From a virus: a stretch of DNA of 42,690 bases. The position numbers were made by a program, and so were the translations under genes. Positions within the stretch are counted from its first letter, which is position 1, and each line of letters begins with the position of its first letter. The stretch is from positions 1 through 42,690 of IMG/VR virus record IMGVR_UViG_3300042470_001401; one strand, written 5' to 3'. A model generated the notes under the pieces. It was not told the origin of the DNA and ran no database searches. It worked only from the letters and a program-made list of their open reading frames with translations. Shown one piece after another: positions 1-42,690 of the stretch.

Positions 1-68
1 TGCGCGGCGACGTGCTCGCCGAGCTGCTGCGCGCCTACGACGAGCGCGAGAAGGCGGGGAAGGCGTGA
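1..68 (+). CDS. 3' end of 56-residue early protein (partial)
   Basis: This is the last 22 codons and stop of the same small protein that is complete at 42098-42268; the DNA is identical. It is cut by the window edge. Its stop overlaps the GTG start of the next gene (GTGA), as in the copy at the other end. No family is recognised; the visible tail is acidic then basic (LLRAYDEREKAGKA) and looks helical. Confidence 0.75.
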   Translation, partial: RGDVLAELLRAYDEREKAGKA

Positions 69-120
69 AGGTGCCGACGATGCGACAGGCGCGACGAATC
101 TGGCGCGACGCGATCGAGGC
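1..120. repeat. Terminal direct repeat, left part (equals 42201-42320)
   Basis: Bases 1-120 match 42201-42320 base for base, then the two sequences diverge at base 121/42321. The block covers the end of the 56-residue gene and the first ~19 codons of the variable gene. It most likely marks a circular molecule whose assembly was opened inside a polymorphic locus; a tandem gene duplication is the alternative. Confidence 0.9.
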
Positions 121-610
121 CGTCGTGCTGCGTCTCGGCGATGCCGCGCCGCCTCGCGTTCTCGCCTGGTACGACGAAGGACCTCGCGTCCTCCCGGCGC
201 CAGCGAGGCCCTTCGCGCCGAAGCCCGCGAGGAGCGGTCACATCTACTCGAGCAGCCCGAACGCGATCTCGAAGAGGAAGTCGCGCTCCAAGCCGGACGT
301 GTGGCAACGGGAGCGCGAGGCCGCGGAGGCTCGTCGTCGCCGCGACGGCATGCTGTCGCGCGAAGAGCGCCTCGCTCTCACGCGCGCACGCTCGGAAGCG
401 ACCCGCGCCGAGCGCAATGAGCGCGAGAGAGCCAAGCGAAAGGCCTACTACGCCGCGCACAAGGAGGAGCTCATGCAGAAGCAGCGTGACCGCCGCGCGG
501 TGATGACGCTCGAGGAGCGCCGCGCGGAGTGGGCGCGCCACCAACGCGCCCGCCGCGCCCGCCTCCGCGCCGCGCAGGAAGCCACCTCTTACGCCGAGGC
601 CGCCGAATGA
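65..610 (+). CDS. Arg-rich hypervariable protein, long allele (181 aa)
   Basis: No known family is recognised. The first ~19 residues (MKVPTMRQARRIWRDAIEA) and the last ~32 (ending EATSYAEAAE) are identical to the 133-residue version at 42265-42666. The middle differs in sequence and in length by 48 codons, in frame. The protein is extremely rich in Arg, Glu and Ala, with heptad-like stretches suggesting a long charged helix or coiled coil that could bind nucleic acid (inference). GTG start overlaps the previous stop; the stop overlaps the next ATG. A GTG three codons in is an alternative start. Confidence 0.7.
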   Translation: MKVPTMRQARRIWRDAIEAVVLRLGDAAPPRVLAWYDEGPRVLPAPARPFAPKPARSGHIYSSSPNAISKRKSRSKPDVWQREREAAEARRRRDGMLSREERLALTRARSEATRAERNERERAKRKAYYAAHKEELMQKQRDRRAVMTLEERRAEWARHQRARRARLRAAQEATSYAEAAE

Positions 611-634
611 GCGCCCCGCCCGCCCACCTCTTCC
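536..634. repeat. Terminal direct repeat, right part (equals 42592-42690)
   Basis: Bases 536-634 equal the last 99 bases of the window. The block holds the conserved 3' end of the variable gene and the start of the following gene. The offset differs from that of the left block (42056 versus 42200) because the variable interior is 144 bp shorter in the right-end copy. Confidence 0.9.
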
Positions 635-873
635 ACGGAGGCGTCCTCAAGGCGGCCGGCGTGGTGCACGTCGGCCGAGCGCCCGCACGGGTGCGCTCGT
701 ACGTGCGCGATGCCCGCGGCTACGCGCGCGGGCTCATAGTCGAACACCACCTCGAGCAAGCGCGCCTCGCTGCGGCGGGCGGCGACGAGTGCCAGCGGCG
801 CAGCTGGGTCGCAGCGGTTGCCGACCTCGTGCGATGGCTGAACGGCGACACGAGCCTCGGCGGTGCCCCGTGA
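607..873 (+). CDS. Small early protein, 88 aa, unknown
   Basis: ATG overlaps the stop of the variable gene (ATGA), and the stop overlaps the next GTG, so it is translated within the operon. The protein has a short N-terminal beta-like stretch (GVLKAAGVVHVGR), then a helix with RSYVRDARGYARG and a C-terminal helix ending VADLVRWLNGD. No catalytic motif is visible. It lies between the two halves of the split RecD2 helicase on the circular map. Confidence 0.7.
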   Translation: MSAPPAHLFHGGVLKAAGVVHVGRAPARVRSYVRDARGYARGLIVEHHLEQARLAAAGGDECQRRSWVAAVADLVRWLNGDTSLGGAP

Positions 874-1172
874 AGCCCACGCTGCCCATGCACCCCGACG
901 ACCGCATCGTTTGCGCGCCGTACCGCGGCCGCTTCTCGGCCCGCGCGTGCGCCGAGCACCACGCCCGCGCTCGCGACGAGGCCGCATCGCTCGCGCCCTC
1001 ACCCGGCTCCGTCTCCGCCGCGCGCCACGTGCACTGCGTCGACTGCCCCGACGGCGCAACGCGGGCCGCCGCGCTCGACGTGCAAGTCGCGCCGCCCAAG
1101 CCGCGGTCGCGCGCCCCGCGCATGACGCCGAGCACCTCGCTCGCCGAGTACGTCCCGAGGAACCGCCGATGA
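870..1172 (+). CDS. Small Cys-containing early protein, 100 aa, possible zinc binder
   Basis: GTG at 870 overlaps the preceding stop; an in-frame ATG at 888 is an alternative. Visible motifs are VCAPYRGRFSARACAEHH near the N-terminus and HVHCVDCPDG in the middle, giving four Cys and several His that could coordinate a metal. The C-terminal third is basic and Pro-rich. The pattern is common among small phage proteins but gives no function. Its stop overlaps the RecD2 ATPase start. Confidence 0.7.
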   Translation: MKPTLPMHPDDRIVCAPYRGRFSARACAEHHARARDEAASLAPSPGSVSAARHVHCVDCPDGATRAAALDVQVAPPKPRSRAPRMTPSTSLAEYVPRNRR

Positions 1173-2632
1173 CCACCACGCCCACCACCATCGAGCTCGA
1201 CCCGTCGCAGGAGCGCGCCGTCGCGCTCGTCTGCACCGCCCGCCTCGGCGTCATCACGGGCGGGCCCGGCACGGGCAAGACCACGTGTCTGCGCACCGCG
1301 CTCGATCGCCTCGACGCCGCGGGCGGCACCACGTGCCCCGCGTGCAAGGGGCGCGGTGTCGTGGATGTGCCCGACGAGTGGGGCGGCGACAGCTACGAGG
1401 ACACGTGCCAGGCGTGCGCCGGCAAGGGGCACGTCGTCAGCTACGCGCTCGCCGCGCCGACGGGCAAGGCTGCGCGCCGCATGTCCGAGGCGACCGGGCG
1501 CGACGCGACGACGGTGCACCGCCTGCTCGCGTACGGGCCCACCGGGGACGGCGGCATGGGCTTCAACCACCACGCCGAGCGGCCGCTCACGCACGAGCTC
1601 GTCGTCGTCGACGAGGCGAGCATGCTCGACGTCGAGCTCGCCGACGCGCTCTTTGCGGCGATCGATCCGGAGCGCACGCGCCTCGTGCTCGTCGGCGACG
1701 TGAACCAACTGCCGAGCGTCGGTCCGGGCCGCGTCTTCGGCGACCTCATCGAGGCCGGCGTGGTGCCCGTCGCGCGCCTCGAGAAGCTGCACCGCGCCGC
1801 GGCCGAGTCGTGGGTGTGCTCGCAGGCGCCGCGCATCCTCGCGGGCGAGCTGCCCGACCTCGCGACACGCAAGGACTTCGTGTGGATGCGCGCCGAGGAG
1901 CGCGACAAGGCCGCCCAGGCGCTCGTCGATGTCGTGACGAAGCATCTGCCGGCGCAGCGCGGCGCGAGCGGCGACGCGGTGCAGGTGCTCATCCCGCAGC
2001 GCGTCGGGCCCGCGGGCGGCGAGGCGCTCAACGTGCGCCTGCAGGCGCTCCTCAACCCCGCGCCCGCGGGCGAGGTGCCCACGTGGAAGGTCGGCCCGTT
2101 CACCCTCCGTGAGGGCGACCGCGTCATCCAGACGAGCAACGACTACCACCTGAGCGTGATGAACGGCGAGTGCGGGCGCGTCGCGTGGGTGCGCGACAAG
2201 CCCGTGACGTGCCCGGTGTGCGAGGGGAAGAAGACCGTCGAGATCGACGACGAGGACGCGCGCCGCACCATCGAGCGCGACTGCGAGCGGTGCGCGGGCA
2301 AGGGGGCGCTGCCGCCCGGCATGGGCGTGCGCTACCCCGAGGGCCGCGGAGAGAGGCTCGTCGAGTACAGCAAGAGCAAGGCCGAGGGGCTCTCGCTCGC
2401 GTACGCGCTGACCATCCACAAGAGCCAGGGGTCGGAGTGGCCGTGGGTCGTGGTGTTCGTGCACTCGACGCACACGATGATGCTCACGCGGCAGCTGCTC
2501 TACACGGCGATCACGCGCGCCCGCGTGGGCGTCGTCATCGTCGGCGACAAGGCGGGGCTCGAACGAGCGGTGAAGGAAACGAAGGATGCGAGCCGCAACA
2601 CGGCGCTCGCGGAAAGGCTGCGTGCAGCGTGA
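1169..2632 (+). CDS. RecD2-type helicase, ATPase half (SF1B) with two zinc knuckles
   Basis: 487 residues carrying the motor of a 5'-3' SF1B helicase. Walker A is GGPGTGKTT (31-39), motif II VVVDEASM (145-152), motif III GDVNQLPSVGPG (176-187), and the UvrD_C_2 region is LAYALTIHKSQG and LLYTAITRAR (410-452). Two DnaJ-like knuckles are inserted: CPACKGRG with CQACAGKG (56-87), and CPVCEGK with CERCAGKG (348-379). The OB/HhH N-terminal part normal for RecD2 is absent here; it is a separate gene at 41175-42101, just upstream on the circle. Role: unwinding in replication or recombination. The ATG overlaps the preceding stop. Confidence 0.93.
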   Translation: MTTTPTTIELDPSQERAVALVCTARLGVITGGPGTGKTTCLRTALDRLDAAGGTTCPACKGRGVVDVPDEWGGDSYEDTCQACAGKGHVVSYALAAPTGKAARRMSEATGRDATTVHRLLAYGPTGDGGMGFNHHAERPLTHELVVVDEASMLDVELADALFAAIDPERTRLVLVGDVNQLPSVGPGRVFGDLIEAGVVPVARLEKLHRAAAESWVCSQAPRILAGELPDLATRKDFVWMRAEERDKAAQALVDVVTKHLPAQRGASGDAVQVLIPQRVGPAGGEALNVRLQALLNPAPAGEVPTWKVGPFTLREGDRVIQTSNDYHLSVMNGECGRVAWVRDKPVTCPVCEGKKTVEIDDEDARRTIERDCERCAGKGALPPGMGVRYPEGRGERLVEYSKSKAEGLSLAYALTIHKSQGSEWPWVVVFVHSTHTMMLTRQLLYTAITRARVGVVIVGDKAGLERAVKETKDASRNTALAERLRAA

Positions 2633-3574: not shown

Positions 3575-5017
3575 ATGCCCCGCCCGATCGGCACCATCGA
3601 CATGCACCGCGGACGCTGGCGCGTGCGCCTCACGCTGCCCGACGGCACGCGACGCCCGTTCCTCGCGCCCGACGGCTACACCCGCGAGCAGGCCGAGGAA
3701 TGGCGCGGCGCTCTGCTCGCCGACATGCGCGGGACCGCGCTCGACCCGAGCATCCGCGCCTCGCGCTCGGTGGGCGCGTGGGCGATGTCGTGGCTCGACG
3801 CGCGCGAGCGCACACATCGGGACGCCGATGGGGATCGCCAGCGCTGGCGCTGCTACTGGGCCGAGGACCCGATCGCGATCGTGTCGCTTCGCGCGCTCAC
3901 CCCGACCGCGCTCCTTGAGGCCGGCGAGCGCCTCGCCGATCGTCGTCTCGCGCGCCAGACGACGCGCAACGCGTGGACGACGCTTCGGGCGTGCCTGCGC
4001 GCTGCGGTGCGAGCGCGCGAGCTCACGGCCGAGCGATGCGCGGAGCTGCTCACCGTGGAGCTGCCGCCGCTCGATCACGACATCGAGACCGAGACCGAGG
4101 AGCGGTGGACGTGGCTGTCGCTCGAGGAGATCGAGCGCGTGCTCGCGCTCGAGATGAGCGACGCTGCGCGCGCGGCGTTCCTCGTCGGGATCTTCACCGG
4201 TCTCCGCGCGGGCGAGCTCCACGCGCTTCGGTGGAGCGACGTGCACGTTGCCGCTCACATCCCGCACGTGTTCGTCGCGAGGTCACGCAAGCGCGCGACG
4301 AAGGCGGGCAGGGTGGGGCGCGTGCGCCTCCTCGAGCCCGCGATCGGCGCGCTGCGCTGGTACGCCGGGCGGTGCGGTGTGCGCATCGAGGATCGCCCTG
4401 ACGCGCTGCTCTGGCCCGGCGCGAAGGGCAGCATGCACGCGCGCGGCTACGACTGGGGCTGGCCCACGCTGCGAGCTCGTGCAGGCGTTCGCGCCGACGT
4501 GACGTGGCACGACGCGACGAGGCACACGTGCGCGTCGCACCTCCTGCAGGGCACGTGGTGCGCGATGGGCTGGACAGATCGGCCGCTGCGCCTCGAGGAG
4601 GTCTCGACGTGGCTACGGCACTCCGACATCGGCGTGACGCAGCGCTACGCGCACCTCTCGCTCGAGTCGCTGCCCGTGACCGCGGGCCTGGGACCAGAGG
4701 CGCTGCGGTCCCAGCGGTCCCACGCTGCCCGGCTGCTTGCTCGTCTCGGCGCACAACTGGCCGAGATCTCTGGCGATTCTGGAAGCCGCCCCCGGGAATT
4801 GAACCCGGGACCTACGGTTTACGAAACCGGGCATGGCGCCCCGAGATTGCTGGCGATTCGCGGCGGCGGGACCGCAGTGGGGCCGCACGATCTGGCCACG
4901 GAGATGCTCGCCGCCCTCGCAGACGGCGACGGCGTGCGCGTCGAGCAGCTCGCGCTGCGGCTCGCGAGCGCCGTCCTCGCGGCGGGCGATGCCGATCGCG
5001 CGCGCAGGGTGGGGTGA
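3575..5017 (+). CDS. int: Tyrosine-family site-specific integrase (attP inside the gene)
   Basis: 480 residues. The N-terminal part resembles the SAM-like/arm-binding half. The catalytic domain shows Arg211 (TGLRAGELHALRW), WHDATRHTCASHLL with His312 and Arg316, His349 (WLRHSD) and the nucleophile Tyr358 (QRYAHLS). The spacing in box II is HxxxR rather than the usual HxxR. Residues ~404-419 (SRPRELNPGPTVYETG) are read from an antisense tRNA 3' half, the likely attP core. The last ~61 residues lie beyond the core, so they would be replaced after integration. It catalyses phage integration and probably excision. It is the last gene of the early rightward operon. Confidence 0.95.
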   Translation: MPRPIGTIDMHRGRWRVRLTLPDGTRRPFLAPDGYTREQAEEWRGALLADMRGTALDPSIRASRSVGAWAMSWLDARERTHRDADGDRQRWRCYWAEDPIAIVSLRALTPTALLEAGERLADRRLARQTTRNAWTTLRACLRAAVRARELTAERCAELLTVELPPLDHDIETETEERWTWLSLEEIERVLALEMSDAARAAFLVGIFTGLRAGELHALRWSDVHVAAHIPHVFVARSRKRATKAGRVGRVRLLEPAIGALRWYAGRCGVRIEDRPDALLWPGAKGSMHARGYDWGWPTLRARAGVRADVTWHDATRHTCASHLLQGTWCAMGWTDRPLRLEEVSTWLRHSDIGVTQRYAHLSLESLPVTAGLGPEALRSQRSHAARLLARLGAQLAEISGDSGSRPRELNPGPTVYETGHGAPRLLAIRGGGTAVGPHDLATEMLAALADGDGVRVEQLALRLASAVLAAGDADRARRVG

Positions 5018-6343: not shown

Positions 6344-6985
6344 TCACGTCCCCAGCGGGTCCCAGCTCTTCGGGATCGGCAGCCCCTGGCGCACGGTGCG
6401 CGTGCTCGGCGGCACGGGGTCGATGATGCGGCGCAGGCCGTGGCGCTCTGAGAGCGGGATCACGAGCTCGCGCCAGACGATCGGGCCCGGGTCGTTCGGC
6501 TTGATGCCGTTGCTCGAGCGGTGCGCGCAGCTCGACGAGAGCTCCGCGCCCTCGCGCGCGGCCTCGGCGATGAGCCACGGCACGAGCTCGCCGCACGTCG
6601 CGATCTGCTCGGGCGTGATCGTGCCGTCCGCGCTCTCGATCTCGATGCCGAGCTTGGTCGGGTTCCACCCGTTGCCGTGGTATAGGTGCGCGAGGAGGCC
6701 GAAGGGCACGGCCGCGTCGCCGTCGCGGAAGAGGGTCGCGTGCGCAGGGATGCGGCGCGCACGTTCGTTGCGGGCTCGACGGCGATCGCCGCCGTGGCGC
6801 GCGACCGCGGCGGGCGAGACGCCGAAGATGCACGCGGTGATGTGCCAGCAGATCCCGTCGACGCGCGCCGGCTCCCTCATCACGACGCGCCCCTTCGCAT
6901 CGAAGAGCGCCTTCGCCGTGCCGCTGTTCGCGCGGCGCGTGAGCTGCGAGTAGTCGGCGCTCGAGCGCCAGTCGAGGATCGTCAT
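6344..6985 (-). CDS. Endolysin: amidase_2/PGRP-like N-acetylmuramoyl-L-alanine amidase
   Basis: 213 residues from ATG 6985, which overlaps the stop of the holin-like gene. The zinc-ligand pattern of PGRP/amidase_2 enzymes is present: His48 in CWHITACIFG, a central YHGNGWNPTKLGIEIE region, and His155 with downstream Asp165 (SSCAHRSSN and KPNDPG). It would cleave the amide bond between MurNAc and the stem peptide. No signal peptide, so release would depend on a holin. Last gene of the late leftward operon. Confidence 0.85.
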   Translation of the reverse strand: MTILDWRSSADYSQLTRRANSGTAKALFDAKGRVVMREPARVDGICWHITACIFGVSPAAVARHGGDRRRARNERARRIPAHATLFRDGDAAVPFGLLAHLYHGNGWNPTKLGIEIESADGTITPEQIATCGELVPWLIAEAAREGAELSSSCAHRSSNGIKPNDPGPIVWRELVIPLSERHGLRRIIDPVPPSTRTVRQGLPIPKSWDPLGT

Positions 6986-7095
6986 CGCCTCGGCCCTCCC
7001 GTGAGCGCCATCCACACGAGCGCGAGGCCTAGCGCGAGCACGCATCCGAGCGCGCCGAGCGCGAGGGCCCCGAGCGTGAGGAGTACGCAGGTCAC
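6982..7095 (-). CDS. Holin-like small membrane protein, 37 aa
   Basis: GTG 7095 overlaps the preceding stop and the stop overlaps the amidase ATG. The product is one hydrophobic segment (LLTLGALALGALGC, then VLALGLALVWMALTGG) with a basic end (GPRR), as in small single-span holins or pinholins. Its place directly before the endolysin supports this, but it is too short for a family assignment. Confidence 0.6.
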   Translation of the reverse strand: MTCVLLTLGALALGALGCVLALGLALVWMALTGGPRR

Positions 7096-7283
7096 GGCGT
7101 GCGCCGCTCGAGGCCGACGAAGACGCCGACGAGCGAGATCTCGCCCGTCTCCGGGTCCTCGAACTCGCGTGCCTCGTAGACCGCATCGCGCGCGCCCGAT
7201 GCGATGCGCACGCGGTCGCCTGCCTGGGTAACCTCGGCCGTGGTGCCGCCGTGGTCGCCGCCCGTGAGAGTGATGGTGATCAT
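7092..7283 (-). CDS. Small beta-rich protein, 63 aa, unknown
   Basis: ATG 7283 overlaps the stop of the fibre-like protein and its stop overlaps the holin-like gene. The sequence alternates short strands (MITITLTGGDH, RVRIASGA, SLVGVFVGLE), suggesting a small beta barrel or fibre cap. No family is recognised. Confidence 0.65.
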   Translation of the reverse strand: MITITLTGGDHGGTTAEVTQAGDRVRIASGARDAVYEAREFEDPETGEISLVGVFVGLERRTP

Positions 7284-8722
7284 TCCAGGTAACCCTCGAT
7301 GACCGCGACGCCACGGATGATCTCGGATGCCGTCGCGGTTCCCACCGGCATCTTGAGCGCCAGGTGGAACACCTGACCCGACTCGACCACGAAGGGCGTA
7401 TCCGTCTGCCACTGCACGGGCGCGACGTTCGCGCCGATCGCCGCGCCGACGGGGATCGACTGCGACCCGATCGGCTTGCGGAAGCTGTTCGCGGCGAGCG
7501 TGACGGCCGCGGCGCGACCGAGGAACCACTGCAGCAACGTGGGCGTCGTCGCGCTTGCGGCGCCCATGACCCACGTGTCGATCTTCACGCCCGTCACGCA
7601 CAGGGTCATGCCCGTAGGCACCGTGAAGGCGAAGAGAGCGTAGTCGGTCTCCGCGCCGGCCACGGCAGCGAACTGCCACTGGCCGCCAAGCGTCGTGTAG
7701 CCGGCCGCGGTGTTCGAGAGCGTTGCGCTCGCAGGCGCGGCGCTGTTCGCGTGGTTTGCGAGCTGCGCACCGCTCGTGGGATTGAGCAGCGTCGAGCGCC
7801 CCGCGCGCGCGAGGGCGTGCTGGAAGAGACGGCCCTCGTCGATGTCCTGCTGCATCACCGCCACCTCTGAGTAGAAGAGACGGTTTGCAGTCGCAGGAGC
7901 CGTCACGTTCAAGACGCGCAGCAGCAAGGGAAGTGCGCGCTGCGAGGTGTGCCGGATCTGCGTCTGCGTGTACGAGAGCGTGGCGTCGAGCACGGGCCCG
8001 GTCGCTGTCGACCCGTTGCTGTCCCACATCACGACGCGGAAGGCGTCGTCCTGCCAGTAGAGATCGAGGTCGTACCAGTACGTCGGCTTGACGTTGGCCG
8101 GGCCCGCACCCATCGAGACGCCGGTCGAGAGCGTCGCCGTGTCCGCGCTGCTCGTCACGTAGACGAGCTCGAGCGCGCCCGACGTGGTGACGCGCAGGCA
8201 CACGCCATCGACCAGCTGCTCGGTCGTTCCGCTCGCGGTGGCGAAGCCGACCTGCATCACCGATCCGGCGGCGTTCCAGTCGAATCGCGTCCGAATGCTG
8301 TGCCGCAGCACTCCCTCGCGCGGCTTCACGAACCGCGCGACCGACGTGTGCGCGGCCACCGTGGTTGCCGTGGTCGTGTTGTTCGCGTTCAGCGTGACGA
8401 CGCCAGGCGAGGCCTGCGTGATCGTCATCGTGGTCGTGGTCTGTGTCCACTGCTGGGTATTCACGGCCGCGCCGTCGACCGGATCCCAGAAGAGAAGCCC
8501 GTTGACCCGCGAGAGCGCGAGTCCGCCGAGGCTGCCCACTCGCAGCGGGCGCACGACGTCTTCCTGATAGCCGGCGAGCGGCATGCCGCGCTTGGTTGCG
8601 ACGAGGTCGCCGCTCTCGACGACGCACGGCTCGCCATCGGTGCCGACGATCACTGCGTGCAGGCCACCAGCGGTGCCCTCGAGCGCCGTGCCACCGTTGC
8701 TGAATCCGACCTCAATCGACAT
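7280..8722 (-). CDS. Tail fibre/receptor-binding-like structural protein, 480 aa
   Basis: A Thr/Ala/Val-rich beta-strand protein. The first ~90 residues look like an attachment domain, a jelly-roll-like middle covers about residues 95-260 (with WTQTTTTMTIT and TYWYDLDLYWQDDAFRVVMW), and another beta domain covers about 290-480. No enzyme motif is seen. The position after the collagen-like fibre and before the lysis genes suits a distal fibre or receptor-binding subunit. Confidence 0.65.
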   Translation of the reverse strand: MSIEVGFSNGGTALEGTAGGLHAVIVGTDGEPCVVESGDLVATKRGMPLAGYQEDVVRPLRVGSLGGLALSRVNGLLFWDPVDGAAVNTQQWTQTTTTMTITQASPGVVTLNANNTTTATTVAAHTSVARFVKPREGVLRHSIRTRFDWNAAGSVMQVGFATASGTTEQLVDGVCLRVTTSGALELVYVTSSADTATLSTGVSMGAGPANVKPTYWYDLDLYWQDDAFRVVMWDSNGSTATGPVLDATLSYTQTQIRHTSQRALPLLLRVLNVTAPATANRLFYSEVAVMQQDIDEGRLFQHALARAGRSTLLNPTSGAQLANHANSAAPASATLSNTAAGYTTLGGQWQFAAVAGAETDYALFAFTVPTGMTLCVTGVKIDTWVMGAASATTPTLLQWFLGRAAAVTLAANSFRKPIGSQSIPVGAAIGANVAPVQWQTDTPFVVESGQVFHLALKMPVGTATASEIIRGVAVIEGYLE

Positions 8723-10452: not shown

Positions 10453-11324
10453 GACGCCACCCCGCCCACGAGCGCGCGCACGATCGCGACGGCCACGGGA
10501 GGCAGCGGCGGCAGCGTCACGCCGAGCGAGAGGCTCGCGAGCGTCTCCCGCACCGACTCGTACACGCGCGCCATCGCCTGGAGCGCGAGATCGAGCGCCT
10601 CGCCGATCTGGCCCTCGTCGGCCCGCGCCGCGACCTCGATCACGTCGACGTAGGCGCGCACGCCCGCGATCGCCGCCTCGGCCGCCGTCGCAGCGGTGCG
10701 GCAGTCGCCCCCGGTGCGCTCGACGCACGCGGCGTCCGTGCACCGCGCGAGCGCCGTCTCGCACGTCAGCGCGACCGCGTCGCCCGCGGTCACGACCGAC
10801 ACGCGCGCGATGGTCGCGATCGTCGAGTGCGTGCGGAGCGCGGAGGCGCCGCAGCCGGTGAGAAGCGCGGCGCCGAGAACCAGAGCGATCGAGATCGCGA
10901 GCGAGCAACCGAGTGCGACGTGTCCATCGGTGACCGAACTGCCCACGCGCACGACCGCACCGGGCACTACGAGGAAGCGCGGCGTCTGCGGCGCAGCGGC
11001 GTCGCGGTAGCCTCGCTCGACGCGGGCAGCGGTCGAGGGCATCGTCACGCGGCGCGGGCGCGTCGGCGGGCCGTCGCTCGTCGGCGGCTGCGTGTCGTCG
11101 CTGTCGTCGTCGGGCGCGCTCGGGCCGCCGCTCGGCGGGGCAGCGGGCGGCGGAGGCGGAGGGGGCGCCGCGATGATGCTGCGGAGGACGCCCACGGCGA
11201 GCGTGAGCGCCGCGCCGATCGGCGCGTGGTAGTCCGCGGGGGCGTAGATGAGGGCGAGCACGGCGATCGCGCCGAGGCCCAGCACGAGCGCGGTCTGCGG
11301 CCAGTCCAGTCGGGGGAGCTTCAT
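10449..11324 (-). CDS. Membrane protein: two-span N-terminus, Pro-rich linker, lipobox-like third segment
   Basis: 291 residues. Two hydrophobic segments lie at about 10-28 (TALVLGLGAIAVLALIYA) and 33-53, as in class II holins. A Pro run and acidic linker cover 54-90. A third hydrophobic stretch with an LLTGC lipobox-like motif lies at 136-158, and a helical, Cys-containing C-terminal domain follows. It looks like a holin joined to a lipoprotein or spanin-like part. An in-frame ATG at residue 95 could give a separate shorter product. Possible lysis protein, though it is far from the endolysin. Confidence 0.6.
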   Translation of the reverse strand: MKLPRLDWPQTALVLGLGAIAVLALIYAPADYHAPIGAALTLAVGVLRSIIAAPPPPPPPAAPPSGGPSAPDDDSDDTQPPTSDGPPTRPRRVTMPSTAARVERGYRDAAAPQTPRFLVVPGAVVRVGSSVTDGHVALGCSLAISIALVLGAALLTGCGASALRTHSTIATIARVSVVTAGDAVALTCETALARCTDAACVERTGGDCRTAATAAEAAIAGVRAYVDVIEVAARADEGQIGEALDLALQAMARVYESVRETLASLSLGVTLPPLPPVAVAIVRALVGGVAS

Positions 11325-11623
11325 CGTCGACCCTCCATGTCCTCGAGACGATCGATGCGCTGCGTGAGCGCCTCGATCCGCTCCATGCGCGCGCCGAGTG
11401 ACCACGCGGCACCGGCGACCGTCGCCACGACGCCGAGCGAGCCGACGATCACGGCGACGACGACGCCCCACACGAGCGAGCGCATCGCGCGGAGGGCGCG
11501 ACCGTGGGCGCCCGTGATGCGCACGAGCTCGCGCACGATGGTGGGTACCTCGTGCGGCTCCGGCGTGCGCGGGATCCTCGAGATGTCGTCGTCGAGGTCC
11601 AGGCCTGCGAGATCGGCGCTCAC
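11321..11623 (-). CDS. Membrane-anchored coiled-coil protein, 100 aa
   Basis: GTG 11623 overlaps the preceding stop; the stop overlaps the next ATG. Order: an acidic N-terminus, a transmembrane segment SLVWGVVVAVIVGSLGVVAT (about 49-68), then a heptad stretch ARMERIEALTQRIDRLEDME. The topology (one span plus coiled coil) is like hemolysin XhlA-type holin partners or i-spanins. Likely part of a membrane/lysis group with the gene it overlaps. Confidence 0.6.
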   Translation of the reverse strand: MSADLAGLDLDDDISRIPRTPEPHEVPTIVRELVRITGAHGRALRAMRSLVWGVVVAVIVGSLGVVATVAGAAWSLGARMERIEALTQRIDRLEDMEGRR

Positions 11624-12018
11624 ACGCCGGCCCCTTCTGCGGGCGCGAAGCGGAGGCACCCGGTGGCGGCCGTCCCGCGGTGACTCATGTGCGTCCAGCT
11701 CGGATCGAGCCGGATGCGTCGCGTCGTCCCGGCGACGAGGTACAGGTGCGGGACGTTCACGTCGGCCGTCAGCGTGGCGGTGGCGAGCGCGCTCCGGTCT
11801 CCGAGCACGCATGCTGCGTTGGAGTCGCCGAAGCGGATGCCGATGTCGACCGCCGCGCCGCTGCCCGCGCACGAAGTGAACTCGACGAACCTCCCGATGC
11901 AGTCGGCGGGGATCCCGAGCAGCTCCGCGGACGTGCTGATCGAGTCGCGCGCGTGCGGCGTGCCGAGCGTGTAGTCTGCGCTCGCGCGCTGTGACTTCGT
12001 GGCGGTGGGAGCGCTCAT
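11620..12018 (-). CDS. Small beta-rich virion-associated protein, 132 aa
   Basis: ATG 12018. The sequence is a run of short strands typical of a jelly-roll or decoration-type fold (GRFVEFTSCAGSGAAVDIGIRFG, ATATLTADVNVPHLYLVAG, TRRIRLDPSWTHMSHRG). No family is recognised. The 53 bp between its start and the upstream gene contain no clear signal. Confidence 0.55.
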   Translation of the reverse strand: MSAPTATKSQRASADYTLGTPHARDSISTSAELLGIPADCIGRFVEFTSCAGSGAAVDIGIRFGDSNAACVLGDRSALATATLTADVNVPHLYLVAGTTRRIRLDPSWTHMSHRGTAATGCLRFAPAEGAGV

Positions 12019-12071
12019 GCGCCGATCGTCACGGCGAGGACGATCGGCGGCAATGTGACGCGACCGTCAGG

Positions 12072-13145
12072 TCACTCAAGCACGGCCCAGCCGGACACGT
12101 AGACGGTCGCGAAGCTGTTTGACCGGACCTCGAACCGGAGAGTGTCGTACGACGACGCGACTCCGTAGCTCGTAGTCGGGTCCTCGGCGGTGACGGTGAA
12201 CGTCAGTGGACCGAGCCACGCATAGCTCGTGTTCGTGATCGGCTGCCACGCGCTCGCGCCACCGCTGCCCGTCACTACGCGCCAGTCGCCAGACGGAGTG
12301 CCGGACCCACCGCCGTAGTAGGCGTAGATGTAGGCCGTGAGCGTGGTTGTGGTGTCGCTCGGCCTGTCCTTGCCGCCGAGGATCCGGTAGTCGAACCCGG
12401 ACTCGAGCAGCGAGATCGCGGTCGCGCTCGTGGACTGCATCTCTGGCCCCCATCGGCCGATGTGCCCGCTCTTGGTTCGCGGGCGCGTGCCGCTGAGCTG
12501 CGTGAGCCCAATCGTGAGATCGAAGAGACCCTTGATCGACTGGTAGTCGACGCCGCCCTGAATCGGTCGACGTGGAAAGAACCCGTCGAGACCGATCGCC
12601 AGATCGGTCGAGTCCTGCGTGAGCGCCGCGCGAGGCAGCTCCCACACCGCACACGACACGAGGTCGACGTAGCCCGCCGTGCAGACGACCTCGCACGTGA
12701 TCTCCTGGTCGCTCACTGAGCGAGCGAGCTCAGCCTCGACGCCCGCGCCCTCGACGACGACGATCGGCGCCATGCGCGTGCCGTACGCGGGCGCCTCGAC
12801 GGTGTAGGGCGGAGAGACCGCGCTCGGGATCTCGAGTGGCTGGATCGTGACGGTTCCGGGAAAGCCCGTGTGCCCACGGAACTCGAACACCCACACGCGC
12901 GCGATCGCTCGGCCCTGCGGGCGCGTCATGTACCGGAGCGTGGCACTCGTCACTCCAAAGAACCCTGCCGCGTCGAACCGAATCATGGTCTTGTGCTGCG
13001 GCACGAGCACAGTGCCGCGCCCTGCGACCCAATGCGCGAGGCGCGCCATGTCGCTCCACGTCTGTGCGCGCACGGGCGCGCCTGTTGCGATGTCGGAGAT
13101 CACGACATGCGGTCTGTCGAGGTCGACTCGGCCGTCTTGCGTCAT
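12072..13145 (-). CDS. Tail-tip associated protein, 357 aa
   Basis: ATG 13145 overlaps the upstream stop. Early VVISDIATGAPVRAQTWSDM and a later beta-rich body, with Tyr/Thr-rich strands near the C-terminus (LTAYIYAYYGGGSG, LTFTVTAEDPTTSYG), indicate a structural protein. The gene follows the large tail hub, so it is probably a tail-tip or fibre-base subunit. No enzymatic motif is visible. Confidence 0.6.
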   Translation of the reverse strand: MTQDGRVDLDRPHVVISDIATGAPVRAQTWSDMARLAHWVAGRGTVLVPQHKTMIRFDAAGFFGVTSATLRYMTRPQGRAIARVWVFEFRGHTGFPGTVTIQPLEIPSAVSPPYTVEAPAYGTRMAPIVVVEGAGVEAELARSVSDQEITCEVVCTAGYVDLVSCAVWELPRAALTQDSTDLAIGLDGFFPRRPIQGGVDYQSIKGLFDLTIGLTQLSGTRPRTKSGHIGRWGPEMQSTSATAISLLESGFDYRILGGKDRPSDTTTTLTAYIYAYYGGGSGTPSGDWRVVTGSGGASAWQPITNTSYAWLGPLTFTVTAEDPTTSYGVASSYDTLRFEVRSNSFATVYVSGWAVLE

Positions 13146-13810
13146 GGGAGCACCAGGTATTCGGAGATGTGAGCGCCGTAGAGCGTGTCGGTGCTGGTGC
13201 CTTTGGCCAGGATCTTCACGCACACGGCAGTCGTGTAGACGTAGGCCTCTTCGCCGCCGATTCCGTCGAGCGTGCGGATCGCGAGACGCGCGCGGTCGAT
13301 GAGGCCGCGCGATGGGGTGATGAGTCCGCCTGTGGGAGCCGGCGCAAGCCAGGCCGGGCCGGCCGCGGACACGAACAGCATGGTGTCGTCAGGCGGCATG
13401 TACGCAAACAGGCCAGCATCCGGCGCAGACGTCTCGTCGGGCAGACAGAGCTTGGCCAGCCATGTCCAGTTCACGGCAGTCGCGTTGATGTTCACCCGCA
13501 CCCGATACGGGATCCGCTCACCCTTGTAGGCGATCACCGAGAGATCGAAAGGTCCATATACCTGCACCGTCCACCACTCGCCCGTGCCTGCGCTTGGCAC
13601 GTTGGCGGTGATTCCGGCGTTCGTGCCCAAGATGAGGCCGCTGTTCGACGGCATGTCGTTGACCCACACCTTCGAATGCGCCTGGTCGGCGAGGTGTAGG
13701 AGGTTGTTCGCCAGTCCGTCGCGCGAGACCATCGGCTCGACGGGCTGCGTGTAGTCCAGGCCCGCGGCCGTGAAGAAGCGGCGTCCGCCGCGTGGACTCG
13801 TGTAGCTCAT
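13142..13810 (-). CDS. Tail-tip associated protein, 222 aa
   Basis: ATG 13810 overlaps the stop of the 882-residue hub protein; an in-frame ATG at 13822 is an alternative. Motifs such as GEWWTVQVYGPFDLSVIAYK and IPYRVRVNINATAVNWTWLA show a beta sandwich. The gene pairs with 12072-13145 by stop-start overlap, so the products may form one tip substructure (inference). Confidence 0.6.
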   Translation of the reverse strand: MSYTSPRGGRRFFTAAGLDYTQPVEPMVSRDGLANNLLHLADQAHSKVWVNDMPSNSGLILGTNAGITANVPSAGTGEWWTVQVYGPFDLSVIAYKGERIPYRVRVNINATAVNWTWLAKLCLPDETSAPDAGLFAYMPPDDTMLFVSAAGPAWLAPAPTGGLITPSRGLIDRARLAIRTLDGIGGEEAYVYTTAVCVKILAKGTSTDTLYGAHISEYLVLP

Positions 13811-16455
13811 GCAAACACCCATCCGGGCACGTCGGCCACGTCCGCGAACTCCAAGCGATGCCCCGAGTCGGCCACGTGCGCGTACCTCGCGAAGCTCTGA
13901 CCTCGGTTGTAGCTGAGGGAGTCCCGCGCACGCAGGAACCACTCGTTCGTGCTCGGCGTCCACGTCGTTGCGAAGTTCACTACGACCGTGTCCGCATCCG
14001 TGATCGACGTGACCGTGCCGAGCACCTCGACGGTGCTCGTCGTGTCCGCGCGAGTGACGCGCACGAGGTCGCCGACGCGCAGGTGGGTCGCGATGTTCGC
14101 GCCACCGTCGGGCGCGTAGAGGTAGCCGGCGAGCGTGAGGTTGATCGTCCAAGTGTTGCCGCTGACGTTGGTCTGCGAGGCGATCAGGATGCCCAGGTTG
14201 TAGGCGACGAACGTCTCGGTGTGCATGACCACGCCGAGCGTCACCCGGCCCGACGAGAGCTCGAGCGCGTGCGAGATGATCATCCCGGGCCGGCTCGCGA
14301 TCTGCGAGTAGCCGTCGGCGGGATCGGGGAGCAGCGCCGACGACATCGACACCGAGTCACCGATGCGCGCGTCCATGAAGCGCGCGTCGAGCGTCACGAC
14401 GCACACGACGACGGGCGAGCCGAAGAAGCCGAAGGCGGCCATGGCTGTGCGGCGCAGCGCGTCGCGATCGATCGTGTTCCAGTCGTCGCCCGGAGCGTAG
14501 AAGCCGGTCGACGTAGACCGCTGCGCGATCTCGAGCGTGATCGGCGTGCGCGTCGCGCTCGTCGTCTGCACATCGCGGTACGTGATCGTGCGCTTCTCCC
14601 ATTCGCCCGTGCGCGGGTCGTAGCCCATGAGGTAGCGGACCTGCGCCAGCGTGCCGAACGGCGCGCGCTCGAGGGCCGCGTCCTTCTCGCCCGTGATCGT
14701 CCACGTGACCGGATCGGTGGCGAGCGGCGGGCGCAGACGGTCCCACTCGATCGAGCCGGTGAGCCCGAGTCGCTGGTACGCGCCGATCGCGAGCAGCTCG
14801 GGCACCACGAAGTCGCCGAGCGTGCTCTCGCCGTCGAACGCGAAGAAGCCGCGCCCGTGAGCGAGCGGCTCCGCGATCACGGCGGCGTCGACGTCGGTCG
14901 TCGGGATGATGTCGTTGCCGTCGATCAGCGGCATCGCGCCCGCGTTGCACGTGTCGGGCGAGTCGAGGATGAGCGCGGTGAGCAGATCGACGACGGAGCC
15001 AGTCGCGATGCTGCGGCCGAGCTCGAAGCTCGTCCGGATGTTGTAGGGCCGGATGTTGCGGTCGGAGAGGAGGTAGACGTTCCGGCCGCTCACCGAGTAG
15101 ATGCGGAGGGGCCGCGGGTCCTCTCCCCACTCGTCACCCTGCGGCACGAGCACCGACGACGTCGTCGGTGCGACGAGGCCGCCGAGGGGGAGCAGGTTCT
15201 CAAGGCTCTCGAAGCCGGTATCCGATGGCACGTGGTACGGAATCCACGCCGCGAACTTGCCAATCGTCCCGCGAGGCACGGGCGCGGGGATCGTGAAGAA
15301 GTAGCGCGTGGTGACGGGCGGCGACCACGACCGATCGCCCATCCGCGTCTCGCGCTCGCCGTCGTCTCGGTACCAGTCGAAGGGGCTTGTCTCGCCCGCG
15401 AGCGACGAGCGGCGCTCGAGGACGTTGATGTAGCCGTCTGCGATGAACACGCCGATGTTCACGGGCGAGCTCGTCGCCGTGACGTAGACGATGTCGATGG
15501 AGTCGCGACGTGCGTAGGCCTGGAGGATCGCGCCCGTCCCGAGCGAGATCGACGCGCTCGAGAGCGCCTGCGTGAGCCCCGCGTTCACCGTGGTGACAAA
15601 GTCCTCCTGTGTCTCGTAGAAGCCATCGATCTTGAAGATTCCGCGCTTCTCTTCCGCCCCAGTCGGATACTGGATCACCGTGATCTTGAACGGCGCGCTG
15701 TTCGTGTACTTGATGCCGCGCGGCCCGATGGCACTGCCGAGATCGCCGCCGATCGGCTGCGCGAGCAGGCGCGTCAGCGGGTCGAGCTGGAACGAGACGA
15801 CTCCCGCCGACCACGAGGCCTCCGTGGCCACGATGCCCTTCCATCGGAGCGTTCCATCGCCCTGCGGATCGTCGCCGTCGCCGTAGAGGTAGAGGTACGC
15901 GCGGCGGCCCTCGATGGCGCGCGGTCGGTCGGTGACCTGCGCGTCTCCCAGGCCCTCGCCGTCGCGCGCGAAGTGCGCCTGCGCGAGCGTCTGCCAGTGG
16001 CCGCGCGTGCACCCGGTGAGGTCGCTCCCCGAGATTGCGGTGTACTCGATCGCCTCGGTGCCGATGTGAACGACGCCGCCGCCACTGTCGAGACCGACCG
16101 TCGAGCGGAGCGCGATCGTCGTGTCGCTCGTGTCGATGTCGCTCGCGAGGAACAGCTTGATGGACGGCGTGCGCGTCAAGTACTGCGTCGGCCGGCCGTG
16201 TCGCGAGCCCGCGATGCGGTCCATGTTCGCGACCTTGATCGTGAGGCTCTGCGCCTCGAGCGTCGCGCGCATGAGGTCGGCCGACGCGCCGATGACGACG
16301 TCGTCGAGCTGCAGCCCGCGCACGCGGATGCGCCCGTCGCTCGTGGTCTTCTCCATGCGCCGGCCGCCCGAGACGAACTCGATCTCGAGGCCCTCGATCA
16401 CGAGGCGCGCGGCGATGCGCCCGCGCCCGGTCGCTGAGATGCGGGAGAGGGTCAT
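13807..16455 (-). CDS. Large tail hub/tip protein, 882 aa
   Basis: ATG 16455, one base-pair from the previous stop, and its own stop overlaps the next ATG. The N-terminal ~230 residues contain repeated strands and a GTEAIEYTAISGSDLTGCTRG segment (about 130-150), typical of phage tail-tip hub proteins, followed by a long mixed middle part and a C-terminal segment with VGDLVRVTRADTTSTVEVLG like an OB or SH3-like fold. Size and position after the tape measure suit the central tail fibre/hub of a siphovirus. Confidence 0.7.
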   Translation of the reverse strand: MTLSRISATGRGRIAARLVIEGLEIEFVSGGRRMEKTTSDGRIRVRGLQLDDVVIGASADLMRATLEAQSLTIKVANMDRIAGSRHGRPTQYLTRTPSIKLFLASDIDTSDTTIALRSTVGLDSGGGVVHIGTEAIEYTAISGSDLTGCTRGHWQTLAQAHFARDGEGLGDAQVTDRPRAIEGRRAYLYLYGDGDDPQGDGTLRWKGIVATEASWSAGVVSFQLDPLTRLLAQPIGGDLGSAIGPRGIKYTNSAPFKITVIQYPTGAEEKRGIFKIDGFYETQEDFVTTVNAGLTQALSSASISLGTGAILQAYARRDSIDIVYVTATSSPVNIGVFIADGYINVLERRSSLAGETSPFDWYRDDGERETRMGDRSWSPPVTTRYFFTIPAPVPRGTIGKFAAWIPYHVPSDTGFESLENLLPLGGLVAPTTSSVLVPQGDEWGEDPRPLRIYSVSGRNVYLLSDRNIRPYNIRTSFELGRSIATGSVVDLLTALILDSPDTCNAGAMPLIDGNDIIPTTDVDAAVIAEPLAHGRGFFAFDGESTLGDFVVPELLAIGAYQRLGLTGSIEWDRLRPPLATDPVTWTITGEKDAALERAPFGTLAQVRYLMGYDPRTGEWEKRTITYRDVQTTSATRTPITLEIAQRSTSTGFYAPGDDWNTIDRDALRRTAMAAFGFFGSPVVVCVVTLDARFMDARIGDSVSMSSALLPDPADGYSQIASRPGMIISHALELSSGRVTLGVVMHTETFVAYNLGILIASQTNVSGNTWTINLTLAGYLYAPDGGANIATHLRVGDLVRVTRADTTSTVEVLGTVTSITDADTVVVNFATTWTPSTNEWFLRARDSLSYNRGQSFARYAHVADSGHRLEFADVADVPGWVFA

Positions 16456-16456
16456 G

Positions 16457-17968
16457 TCACATCGCGCTCATGTACGAGGTGATCTCCGCGACCTCGGCGG
16501 CCGTCGCGGCGGATGCCCACTGTCCGATCGCGCGGAAGGCGCCGTTCAGCGGCTGCGTGCCGTTGTTGAACGCTCCGATCGCGAGCGTGTCGGACGTTGC
16601 AACGATGCTCGCGGGGATCGTGCCGAAGAAGTTGAGCGTCTGCTGAGTGCCGTTCACCCACATCTTGAGGCGGTTCGCGTTGCCCGTGAGATCCTTGTCG
16701 TAGACGATGACGATCGCGTGCCACGCGCCCGCGGTGAACGCTGAGGCCGGCGCCGCACCGCCGTTCACGCCGGGGTTTCCGAACCACAAGCGCAGCTCGC
16801 CGCTGTACTGCACTGACCACGAACCGGCCGCGTTGGTGCTCTTCGCGAGGACTCCCATCGACCCCGCGAGCGTGTCCAGGCGCACGCGCAGGGCGATCGT
16901 CATCGACCCGGTGACATCGAGAGACGCCGCGTCCGGAACGAGCATGTAGTGAGACGCGCCATCGAAGTCGATCCCGTCGGCGGTCTGGTCGGGTCGCAGG
17001 CTCGTCGTGCCCTGCGCCGCGTTGTTTCGGTTGCCGCTGAGGTCGCCCCACGTCGCGACCTCGGGTGAGGTGCCGAGCGTCACGCGCGCGTCGTGCTCGA
17101 GCCACAGGATCGGCGAGAGCTTGGCTTCGGTGATGTGCTGCGTGCGGCCGAGTGCCCACGCGCCGATCGGGATGGTCTGGTGTCCGAGGTAGTCCGCCGC
17201 CGCGAGCTGCGGGCGCAGCGTGCACGAGTCGTGACGAAGAACGCCCACGACGACTTTCGGCGCGCTCTGCCTCGGGTCGCGAGACATCCAGAACGGCTCG
17301 ATGGTCCGCGCGCGCGCGAAGGCGCGCTGCCATGTCCAGTTGGGCAGGCCCGTCGTTTCGTTCCAGATCTTTGCCGCCGCTTCCCACGGCACCGTGAAGT
17401 CCAGGCGCCTCGGCGCGCCGAAGGACACGAGTCCGCGCACGTCGCCATCGGCCGCGATGAGGTCCTCGCCGCCGATATCGTCCTCGGCCTCCGTCCACTG
17501 CGATGCGCCGATGTCGATCGCGGACCATCCCCAGATCGGCCGCGTCAGCCCGGGCGCGAAGGACGTATTGAGGTAGCTGAGAGCTCCAGAGAGCGACGCC
17601 ACGCCGAGCCCGAGAGCGCGCTGCATCGACGCCGAGATTGACGTGAGCGCGAACGCGGTCACGCTGCCGCCGCTCGCGCTGATCGTGTAGCTCGGAGTCG
17701 CGGGATTGAAGATGACTCGGTAGTCGGCGTTGCCGACCGCGTTGAGAGCGTCCTCGAGGGCGCGCGCGAAGTTCTCGTAGCCACTGTCGGTGGTCCGGAT
17801 CTCTCCGGTCTGCGGATCGGTGGTCTGGTACGCGCCGTGTGCGACGTGGTGCACGTACTGCCCGGTGAGCGAGATCGCTCCGGTCGCCGCGCCGCCGCCC
17901 GTCTCGGTGAGCGTGCACGTGAGAGCGCCGAGGCGCGCGGCGTCGAAGCCCCACGAGATCCACATCAT
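16457..17968 (-). CDS. Tail protein with LamG/concanavalin-like domain, 503 aa
   Basis: Starts MM at 17968 or 17965, overlapping the tape-measure stop. The N-terminal ~270 residues look like a distal-tail type module (MWISWGFDAARLGALTCTL). From about 285 a LamG-like lectin fold is clear: LSPILWLEHDARVTLGTSPE, WGDLSGNRNNAAQG, GIDFDGASHYMLVP, then a C-terminal ATAAEVAEITSYMSAM helix. The lectin domain suggests carbohydrate binding at the cell surface. It lies directly after the tape measure, the place of the distal tail protein. Confidence 0.72.
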   Translation of the reverse strand: MMWISWGFDAARLGALTCTLTETGGGAATGAISLTGQYVHHVAHGAYQTTDPQTGEIRTTDSGYENFARALEDALNAVGNADYRVIFNPATPSYTISASGGSVTAFALTSISASMQRALGLGVASLSGALSYLNTSFAPGLTRPIWGWSAIDIGASQWTEAEDDIGGEDLIAADGDVRGLVSFGAPRRLDFTVPWEAAAKIWNETTGLPNWTWQRAFARARTIEPFWMSRDPRQSAPKVVVGVLRHDSCTLRPQLAAADYLGHQTIPIGAWALGRTQHITEAKLSPILWLEHDARVTLGTSPEVATWGDLSGNRNNAAQGTTSLRPDQTADGIDFDGASHYMLVPDAASLDVTGSMTIALRVRLDTLAGSMGVLAKSTNAAGSWSVQYSGELRLWFGNPGVNGGAAPASAFTAGAWHAIVIVYDKDLTGNANRLKMWVNGTQQTLNFFGTIPASIVATSDTLAIGAFNNGTQPLNGAFRAIGQWASAATAAEVAEITSYMSAM

Positions 17969-19482: not shown

Positions 19483-19858
19483 GGGTCACCTCGCGGGCTC
19501 GTCGCTCCATCTCCGACACGTCGGCGCGCGCCGCGCCGATCGCGCGGTCGAACACGAGCACGGCCTCGACGAGCCAGTGCGGCGGGTCATCGCCGGCCAC
19601 TGCCGCGAGCTGGTGCCTCTCGTATGCGCTCCACGCGTCGATCACCGCAGCTACCTCCGGATCGCTCCACGACCTCCACGGACACTCGGGCGGCTCGCCG
19701 CCGCAGACCTGCCGGACCGCAGCCAGAGCCCCGAGCGCGCTCGCGCCCACCACGGGCCCTTGCGTGCGGCCCTCTGGCCACCGCTCGCCCTCGCATCCGC
19801 AGCGGTAGGCCTGCCGGAGCGTGTGGCGAGCGCGGCGCGCATCCTCGCTCAGCCCTCC
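19472..19858 (-). CDS. Frameshifted C-terminal extension of tail assembly chaperone
   Basis: This reading frame is open upstream of the stop of the 173-residue chaperone but has no ATG, GTG or TTG near its beginning. It is in the -1 frame relative to the upstream gene and sits between chaperone and tape measure, exactly as the T part of lambda G/GT. A candidate slip site is GGAGGGC (rc of 19852-19858), directly before the TGA. The extension (about 125 residues) has Cys, Trp and helices (RQAYRCGCEGERWPEG, EVAAVIDAWSAYERHQ). The exact slip codon is not certain. Confidence 0.65.
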   Translation of the reverse strand, partial: GGLSEDARRARHTLRQAYRCGCEGERWPEGRTQGPVVGASALGALAAVRQVCGGEPPECPWRSWSDPEVAAVIDAWSAYERHQLAAVAGDDPPHWLVEAVLVFDRAIGAARADVSEMERRAREVTRGR

Positions 19859-20370
19859 GAGGGTGCCGCGGGCTCCCTCGGCGTCGGCGCACGCTCGCCC
19901 CGGCTCTGCACCGCAGAGAGGGAGCTGAGCTGCTGGGCGGCCCACACGAGACGCGAGGAAGGCCGCACCGAGTAGCCTCCCCCGCAGTCGGTAGGGAGGA
20001 TCGCGCGCTCGAGCACGAGCCCCCCGATCTCCTGGTGGTCGGCGATCCCGAACGTGTCGGCCTCGGCCTCGGTCATCGCCAAGAAGTCGCGCGTCTCGGT
20101 GCCCGCGGGCGTCCACGGGCCCGAGGCGAGGTCCACGCGTCGCACGCCGGCACGGAAGGCGCGGAAGCACCGCTCGTGCTCGTCGGGCGCCGACATGGCC
20201 CACGCGTAGGCCTTGCGGCTCAAGCGCACCGAGTGGAACACGACCGGCGTGCGGCCGGGGAGCAAGACGAGCTTGCTTTCGTCGCGCGTGATGGGCCACG
20301 TGTCGGCCGGCGTGCCTGTCTCGGACGTCCAGTCGATCGCGGGATCGTAGAGTCGGATGAAGCGGTCCAT
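19849..20370 (-). CDS. Tail assembly chaperone (G-like), 173 aa
   Basis: ATG 20370 preceded by GAGGAG. Located between the tail tube gene and the tape measure, the fixed place of the gpG-type chaperone. The sequence has MDRFIRLYDPAIDWTSETGT, then DESKLVLLPGRTPVVFHSVR and a helical centre. It would coat and help load the tape measure; a fraction of ribosomes probably continues into the overlapping -1 frame. Confidence 0.7.
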   Translation of the reverse strand: MDRFIRLYDPAIDWTSETGTPADTWPITRDESKLVLLPGRTPVVFHSVRLSRKAYAWAMSAPDEHERCFRAFRAGVRRVDLASGPWTPAGTETRDFLAMTEAEADTFGIADHQEIGGLVLERAILPTDCGGGYSVRPSSRLVWAAQQLSSLSAVQSRGERAPTPREPAAPSEG

Positions 20371-20378
20371 GGGGCTCC

Positions 20379-21638: not shown

Positions 21639-21641
21639 GGG

Positions 21642-23087: not shown

Positions 23088-23088
23088 A

Positions 23089-23161: not shown

Positions 23162-23164
23162 ACA

Positions 23165-23185: not shown

Positions 23186-23189
23186 CGTG

Positions 23190-41174: not shown

Positions 41175-42101
41175 ATGCGACAGGGACAGCAAGAGCTCGA
41201 CGTGCTCCGCGGCCAGGTGGCCTCGGTGAAGCTGCTCAAGGACGGCTGGGGCCGCGCGATGGTGCGCGCGGGCTCGGGCGACGCCGCCGTGGCCGTGATG
41301 GGCACGGTGCTCGGCATCGACGAGGGCACGACCGTGGAGTGCCGCGGACGCTGGGACGTGCACCCGCAGTACGGGCGGCAGTTCAAGGCCTCGACGATCT
41401 CGACGATCGTGCCGTCGAGCGCGGAGGGGGCGATCGCGTGGATCGCCAGCAAGCTCCCCGCCGTCGGGCGCAAGCGCGCGACCGAGCTCGTCGAGCGGTA
41501 CGGCATCCCGGCGCTGTGGGACGTGCTCGAGCGCACGCCCGAGCAGCTCGTCGAGGTGCGCGGCATCACCGCGGAGGCGGCCGAGAAGATCGGCGCCGAG
41601 TACGCACGCGTGAAGGGCGAGCGCGACGAGATGGTCACGCTGCGCGGCTGGGGCCTGAGCGAGTATCAGATCAGCCGCTGCCGCGAGGCATGGAAGGGCA
41701 ACGTGGTCGCCGAGCTGCGCGCCGACCCGTTCCGGCTCGCCGAGGTCGTCGATGGCTTCGGCTTCCGGCGCGCCGACGAGGTCGCGCGCCGCATGGGCAC
41801 GCCGAGCGACCACCCGAGCCGCATCCGCGCGTGCCTCATGCACACGCTCAGCGAGGCCGAGGGCGCGGGGCACTGCTACGTCGTCTCGGGGGCGCTCGTG
41901 GCCATCGCGAGCGACACGCTCGGCCTGGCGCGCGACATCGTCGCCCGCGAGCTCGGGCGCGCCGTGGGCCTCGGCGTGGTCATTCAGGAGGGCAGCCGCG
42001 TCTACCTGGCGACGACGCACCGCGCCGAGCAGGGCGTGGCGCGGCGCGCGCTGGCGATGCTGGGCGCGCGAGGCGGCGCAGAGCAGCGGAGGGCGGCGTG
42101 A
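41175..42101 (+). CDS. RecD2 N-terminal part (OB/HhH) as a separate protein, 308 aa
   Basis: ATG 41175 with GAGGAA five bases upstream. GQVASVKLLKDGWGRAMVRA and strands to about 75 form the OB-like N-terminus of RecD2. AWIASKLPAVGRKRATELVE and LVEVRGITAEAAEKIGAEYA are the tandem helix-hairpin-helix motifs. FRLAEVVDGFGFRRADEVAR and a winged part follow. The ATPase motifs are missing: no Walker A. They are in the gene at 1169-2632, about 1.2-1.3 kb further on the circle. It probably forms a complex with that motor (inference). Confidence 0.88.
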   Translation: MRQGQQELDVLRGQVASVKLLKDGWGRAMVRAGSGDAAVAVMGTVLGIDEGTTVECRGRWDVHPQYGRQFKASTISTIVPSSAEGAIAWIASKLPAVGRKRATELVERYGIPALWDVLERTPEQLVEVRGITAEAAEKIGAEYARVKGERDEMVTLRGWGLSEYQISRCREAWKGNVVAELRADPFRLAEVVDGFGFRRADEVARRMGTPSDHPSRIRACLMHTLSEAEGAGHCYVVSGALVAIASDTLGLARDIVARELGRAVGLGVVIQEGSRVYLATTHRAEQGVARRALAMLGARGGAEQRRAA

Positions 42102-42268
42102 CGAACCGCAAGCCCACCTGGGCCGAGGGCGAAGGCTCCATCGAGTGGTGGCGCGCTGAGGCGAAGCGCGCGCCGCTCGACGAGTCGGACCGCTGCGACG
42201 TGCGCGGCGACGTGCTCGCCGAGCTGCTGCGCGCCTACGACGAGCGCGAGAAGGCGGGGAAGGCGTGA
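42098..42268 (+). CDS. Small early protein, 56 aa (complete copy)
   Basis: GTG 42098 overlaps the stop of the RecD2-N gene; its stop overlaps the variable gene start. It reads MTNRKPTWAEGEGSIEWWRA with an acidic helix, then DVRGDVLAELLRAYDERE. The last part is repeated at 1-68. No family is recognised. Not a complete ORF in longer form: other frames here have no support. Confidence 0.6.
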   Translation: MTNRKPTWAEGEGSIEWWRAEAKRAPLDESDRCDVRGDVLAELLRAYDEREKAGKA

Positions 42269-42320
42269 AGGTGCCGACGATGCGACAGGCGCGACGAATC
42301 TGGCGCGACGCGATCGAGGC
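42201..42320. repeat. Terminal direct repeat, copy of 1-120
   Basis: Identical to bases 1-120; it contains the 3' end of the 56-residue gene and the fixed start of the variable gene. See the entry for 1-120 for interpretation. Confidence 0.9.
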
Positions 42321-42666
42321 TGTCGTCGCGCGCGTGGGCGAGGCCGCGCCGCCGCGCGTGCTCGCCTGGTACGAGGAGGAGTCGCTTGCGCGCCGTCGCC
42401 GCGCACAATCCGAGGCGCGACGCAGGCGCGGCGGGGCCCGCACACGCGAGCAGTACCTCGCCGAGATCCGCGCCGAGGCCGCCGCGCGGAAGGCTGCGGT
42501 GCCGCTCGAAGAGCGCCGCGCAGCTGACAGAGACCGGACGCGAGAGCGTCGCGCCGCCATGCCGCTCGAAGAGCGCCGAGCCGAATGGGCTCGCCACCAA
42601 CGCGCCCGCCGCGCCCGCCTCCGCGCCGCGCAGGAAGCCACCTCTTACGCCGAGGCCGCCGAATGA
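42265..42666 (+). CDS. Arg-rich hypervariable protein, short allele (133 aa)
   Basis: Same GTG start overlap and same ends as the 181-residue allele at 65-610. The interior has two copies of PLEERRA in a long charged helix (RRRGGARTREQYLAEIRAEA, then AVPLEERRAADRDRTRERRA, then AMPLEERRAEWARHQRA). This suggests that internal duplication and exchange create the length differences. No function is known. Confidence 0.7.
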   Translation: MKVPTMRQARRIWRDAIEAVVARVGEAAPPRVLAWYEEESLARRRRAQSEARRRRGGARTREQYLAEIRAEAAARKAAVPLEERRAADRDRTRERRAAMPLEERRAEWARHQRARRARLRAAQEATSYAEAAE

Positions 42667-42690
42667 GCGCCCCGCCCGCCCACCTCTTCC
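42592..42690. repeat. Terminal direct repeat, copy of 536-634
   Basis: Identical to 536-634; contains the fixed end of the variable gene and the first bases of the 88-residue gene. It ends at the window edge. Confidence 0.9.
42663..42690 (+). CDS. 5' end of the 88-residue early gene (partial)
   Basis: ATG at 42663 overlaps the stop of the short allele; the nine codons visible are identical to those at 607-633, so this is the same gene met again on the circle. Confidence 0.7.

Follow-up and report, generated by a model that had tools for sequence, protein, structure and literature searches.

The ends of a viral contig labelled linear probably carry two alleles of one Arg-rich gene, between the halves of a split RecD2 helicase

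The window analysed here is the entire IMG/VR record IMGVR_UViG_3300042470_001401 (42,690 bases). Its two ends carry closely matching stretches around differing interiors, which raises the question of whether the record is a linear molecule with a duplicated gene or a circular map that was opened within one gene. In IMG/VR the topology of the record is labelled linear because end repeats were not detected. A first-pass annotation had reported that the ends are identical over outer segments and differ in between; base-by-base comparison confirmed that the left segments match exactly over 120 bases and the right segments over 99, with interiors of 415 versus 271 bases (Table 1). Beyond the exact arms a looser identity was seen, 94% out to base 177 and 92% back to base 484, and a repeat search across the window found no direct repeats of 30 nt or longer other than these two, one of 177 nt (94% identity) and one of 151 nt (92%). 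Chance identity of the record ends was rejected, because the exact matches are too long and are present at both ends. The record is not a circular contig with a direct terminal repeat either, since the identity covers only the 120 and 99 bases and the interiors differ. The exact arm lengths say little on the biology, because a branch in an assembler graph also leaves identical arms.

Table 1. Features at the ends of the window and across the split RecD2 locus.
Feature	Position	Strand	Basis or remark
Left shared arm	1..120	+	exact match to 42201-42320
Allele 1 interior, 415 bp	121..535	+	base-by-base comparison of copies
Right shared arm	536..634	+	exact match to 42592-42690
Left shared arm, other record end	42201..42320	+	exact match to 1-120
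Allele 2 interior, 271 bp	42321..42591	+	holds repeated unit, ~20 codons
Right shared arm, other record end	42592..42690	+	exact match to 536-634
RecD2 N-terminal gene (OB + HHH domains)	41175..42101	+	Pfam; TIGR01448 positions 27-291
Small upstream gene, 56 residues	42101..42268	+	translation
Arg-rich gene, allele 2, 133 aa, GTG start	42265..42666	+	ORF list, translation
Arg-rich gene, allele 1, 181 aa, GTG start	65..610	+	ORF list, translation; intact in the relative L004
88-residue downstream gene, ATG overlaps Arg-rich gene stop	607..873	+	translation
100-residue downstream gene	870..1172	+	translation
RecD2 C-terminal gene (SF1 helicase, DnaJ-type CXXCXGXG inserts)	1169..2632	+	Pfam; TIGR01448 from position 313

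Each end holds a copy of an Arg-rich gene. The interiors had been said to stay in frame, and each copy is indeed a single open frame. Inspected by eye, the GTG start overlaps the preceding stop and the TGA overlaps the following start in both copies. The interiors had also been described as differing greatly; they are diverged but not unrelated, because they align as proteins with a score of 76, against 48.8 ± 6.7 for shuffled protein, and 0.15% of the shuffles scored as high. Judged from this alignment, the interiors of the two alleles are distant homologues. What mainly sets them apart is a segment of ~38 residues that the short allele lacks, accompanied by smaller gaps, so that the alleles differ by indels as well as by many kinds of substitution. 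In the near-identical arms, 13 changed codons were synonymous versus 7 others. The dN/dS between the alleles was ~0.37 over the part where they align, and strong diversifying selection was thus unsupported. The earlier word "hypervariable" overstated the case: two alleles and one near-copy of allele 1 are known, and no further homologue was found. Third-position GC was 0.85 and 0.81 in the Arg-rich gene and 0.96 in the RecD2 genes; the lower value would fit a later arrival of the Arg-rich gene, but it would also fit weaker codon selection in it.

The locus was compared with that of a relative, IMGVR_UViG_3300044729_004440 (L004), whose nucleotide identity to the window is ~95-96% around the locus. 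In L004 the RecD2 N-terminal gene, one copy of the Arg-rich gene and the RecD2 C-terminal gene follow each other unbroken, with the same neighbour genes on both sides, and both ends of the window map onto this one single-copy locus. The version present in L004 is that of allele 1 (97% of residues). The dS between the two alleles was 0.59, versus 0.05-0.11 between the window and L004 in four neighbouring genes, indicating that the alleles split before the window and L004 did. At nine arm positions, which flank the gene on both sides, the two window copies agree and L004 differs. The alleles are therefore far more diverged than the backbones, yet both lie in matching flanks of the window population, which favours allele replacement through the shared gene ends. 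Allele 1 is identical in L004 over bases 64-415, the longest identical run in the 10.1 kb alignment; its first 117 codons are the same in both backbones, none of 92 synonymous sites having changed, and this also favours allele replacement by homologous recombination. The run would fit a recent exchange but is not decisive, since other identical runs of 270 and 260 bp show that it is not unique in kind and the 88-aa gene likewise has no synonymous change between the window and L004.

The window is most likely the genome of a phage whose map is circular, opened at a gene with two population alleles that would have been exchanged via homologous recombination. The first-pass annotation had likewise proposed a circle entered and left by different alleles of a single gene, and the one unbroken copy in L004 supports that proposal well, apart from the hypervariability. 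The assembler would have opened the circle at the polymorphic Arg-rich gene, with one end exiting via allele 1 and the other via allele 2, just as a path traced round a circle that contains one bubble is expected to come out by different alleles at its two ends. The alleles would be traded among related phages by homologous recombination within the shared gene ends; such a swap would change the linker and the middle helices of the protein, while the helix at each end and the two gene overlaps would be preserved. We infer that both alleles coexisted in one sample and that recombination was the route of exchange. Against this explanation, besides the limits of the identical run, the arms are unequal, 120 versus 99 bases, whereas a simple graph bubble is expected to give equal overlaps, and the Arg-rich gene is carried by one relative only. 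The length of the right arm, 99, is common for k-mers, and that of the left arm, 120, is not.

Other explanations were weighed against the same observations. In a chimeric join, the backbone and one allele would belong to this phage, and a second phage in the sample, with the same arms, would have supplied the other allele. Such a join would agree with the single backbone in the record and with the behaviour of short-read de Bruijn graph assemblers, which do not phase strain variants past the k-mer length (PMC11443906). However, all arms of both copies show the states of the window population and not those of L004, and a join of this kind would still require two sampled alleles and would differ from the opened circle only in the nearness of the second phage; we regard it as unlikely. 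A true tandem duplication would place allele 2 and then allele 1 on one molecule, each accompanied by incomplete copies of the genes beside it, the interiors having diverged and the ends having been kept alike. Both copies do lie within one record, and direct repeats alone fit either case. On the other hand, L004 holds one copy between the same flanking genes at the same place, which a circular map explains most simply; moreover, the record ends would have to match the repeat ends by chance, and exact ends around a diverged inside would require additional gene conversion. Tandem duplication is quite unlikely on these grounds.

A dedicated diversification device, either a diversity-generating retroelement or an invertible cassette, would also leave the ends of a single gene fixed and its middle variable, but the separation of the alleles by indels and many substitution kinds argues against it. 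No match to a reverse transcriptase (RVT_1) was found anywhere in the record, nor was a further copy of the Arg-rich gene as a possible template, and the retroelement was rejected for these two reasons. Inverted repeats of at least 30 nt were not found in the window, and the invertible cassette was rejected on that account. A device of either kind is highly improbable.

Most likely this is phage recombination of an ordinary kind, made visible by the way the record was assembled; what is unusual is its place, between the halves of a split helicase. The opened circle with its two exchanged alleles resembles the phage mosaicism that arises via homologous recombination at conserved boundaries, where related phages likewise show a diverged interior between near-identical flanks (PMC3029335); here, in contrast, the junctions fall inside one gene, with the protein ends kept and the middle changed. 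Strain bubbles in viral metagenome assembly, where co-existing variants longer than the k-mer split the graph (PMC11443906), offer another likeness, whereas in this case the branch would have set the opening point of the circle and both variants were retained in one record. A viral contig labelled linear can be a circle opened at a polymorphic gene, so that tests for end repeats overlook it. Viral collections could be screened directly for contigs whose ends are near-identical around diverged interiors.

The protein itself was examined by structure prediction and homology searches. Because the pTM was 0.36 for both alleles and the alignments consisted of three sequences, only the secondary structure was used. 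In the prediction for allele 1, a pair of short helices precedes a low-confidence stretch (~residues 42-77), and long helices follow it; allele 2 is predicted to be nearly all helix and lacks this stretch, in agreement with the alignment gap. Searches of viral contigs, genome contigs, phage records, Pfam, PHROGs, NCBIfam, PADLOC and viral folds gave the L004 copy as the only relative. NCBIfam matches to TolA and adenylate kinase were rejected, as they lie far under the cut-off and resemble helical low-complexity matches. The protein is basic and predicted to be helical, and our guess is that it serves the early DNA-metabolism operon in an accessory role; DNA binding or contact with RecD2 would be candidate activities.

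The RecD2 neighbourhood is more interesting than the allele swap. Placement of the Arg-rich gene between the RecD2 halves, as first annotated, was correct by the Pfam and TIGR01448 matches of the flanking genes, and the gene shares this interval with the 56-residue gene upstream and the 88- and 100-residue genes downstream. Both the N-terminal OB/HHH part and the SF1 helicase part of RecD2 (TIGR01448) were found; one window gene matches the N-terminal part of this one model and the other its C-terminal part, but they are separate genes with others in between. They score 172 and 419 bits, and neither reaches the 500-bit TIGR01448 cut-off as a single polypeptide. In virus Rctr197k such a pair is annotated recD2_1 and recD2_2, so the split as such is not new. 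Among 80 related helicases RecD2 was split in 15, and 14 of these (the window, L004, L005 and L010-L020) cluster in a tree, the remaining one being L038. The SH-aLRT support of this cluster is 86, which is moderate and comes from a quick tree search.

The content of the junction varies within this set. The window and L004 hold the Arg-rich gene and small genes; L005 has an MT-A70 methylase, L018 a PRA-PH domain protein and L020 a DUF7768 protein. Open frames that carry no assignment occupy it in L012 and L019, and L010, L011 and L013 have little or nothing there. The Arg-rich gene was not detected in the 11 further records of the split-RecD2 group that were searched, some of which are fragments. 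It is conceivable, as a long shot, that the two-gene RecD2 is a lasting split whose junction gathers cargo tuning the helicase or its targets, and that the Arg-rich protein serves the split enzyme as a variable adaptor, swapped under pressure from host nucleases or other defence systems. The locus draws attention to a phage group with a two-gene RecD2 and a site for accessory genes between the halves. Within the helicase gene at 1169-2632, two DnaJ-type CXXCXGXG cysteine clusters (PF00684) were seen, as in L005. When this gene was used as the query in a genome scan, no host or prophage was found.

Several features were observed in the rest of the genome. The first 3 kb of the window had no nucleotide match in phage records. 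L004 has an insert of ~1.3 kb (6490-7825) just before its RecD2 N-terminal gene that is absent from the window and contains two open frames and a low-complexity stretch. L004 and the window share the early region at ~95-97% nucleotide identity; window positions 11166-29785 were further compared with the L004 record (L088, L089). Homologues of the terminase, portal, major head protein and integrase of the window were not detected in the L004 record, which encodes a tail sheath and baseplate parts; a tail sheath was looked for in the window and not found. Judged from gene content, it looks like near-identical replication genes are paired with a contractile virion in L004 and with a probably non-contractile one in the window. 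A tRNA-Met (cat) gene lies on the minus strand at 23088-23162, within the structural region of the window. An integrase gene is present at 3575-5017, indicating that the phage is probably temperate.
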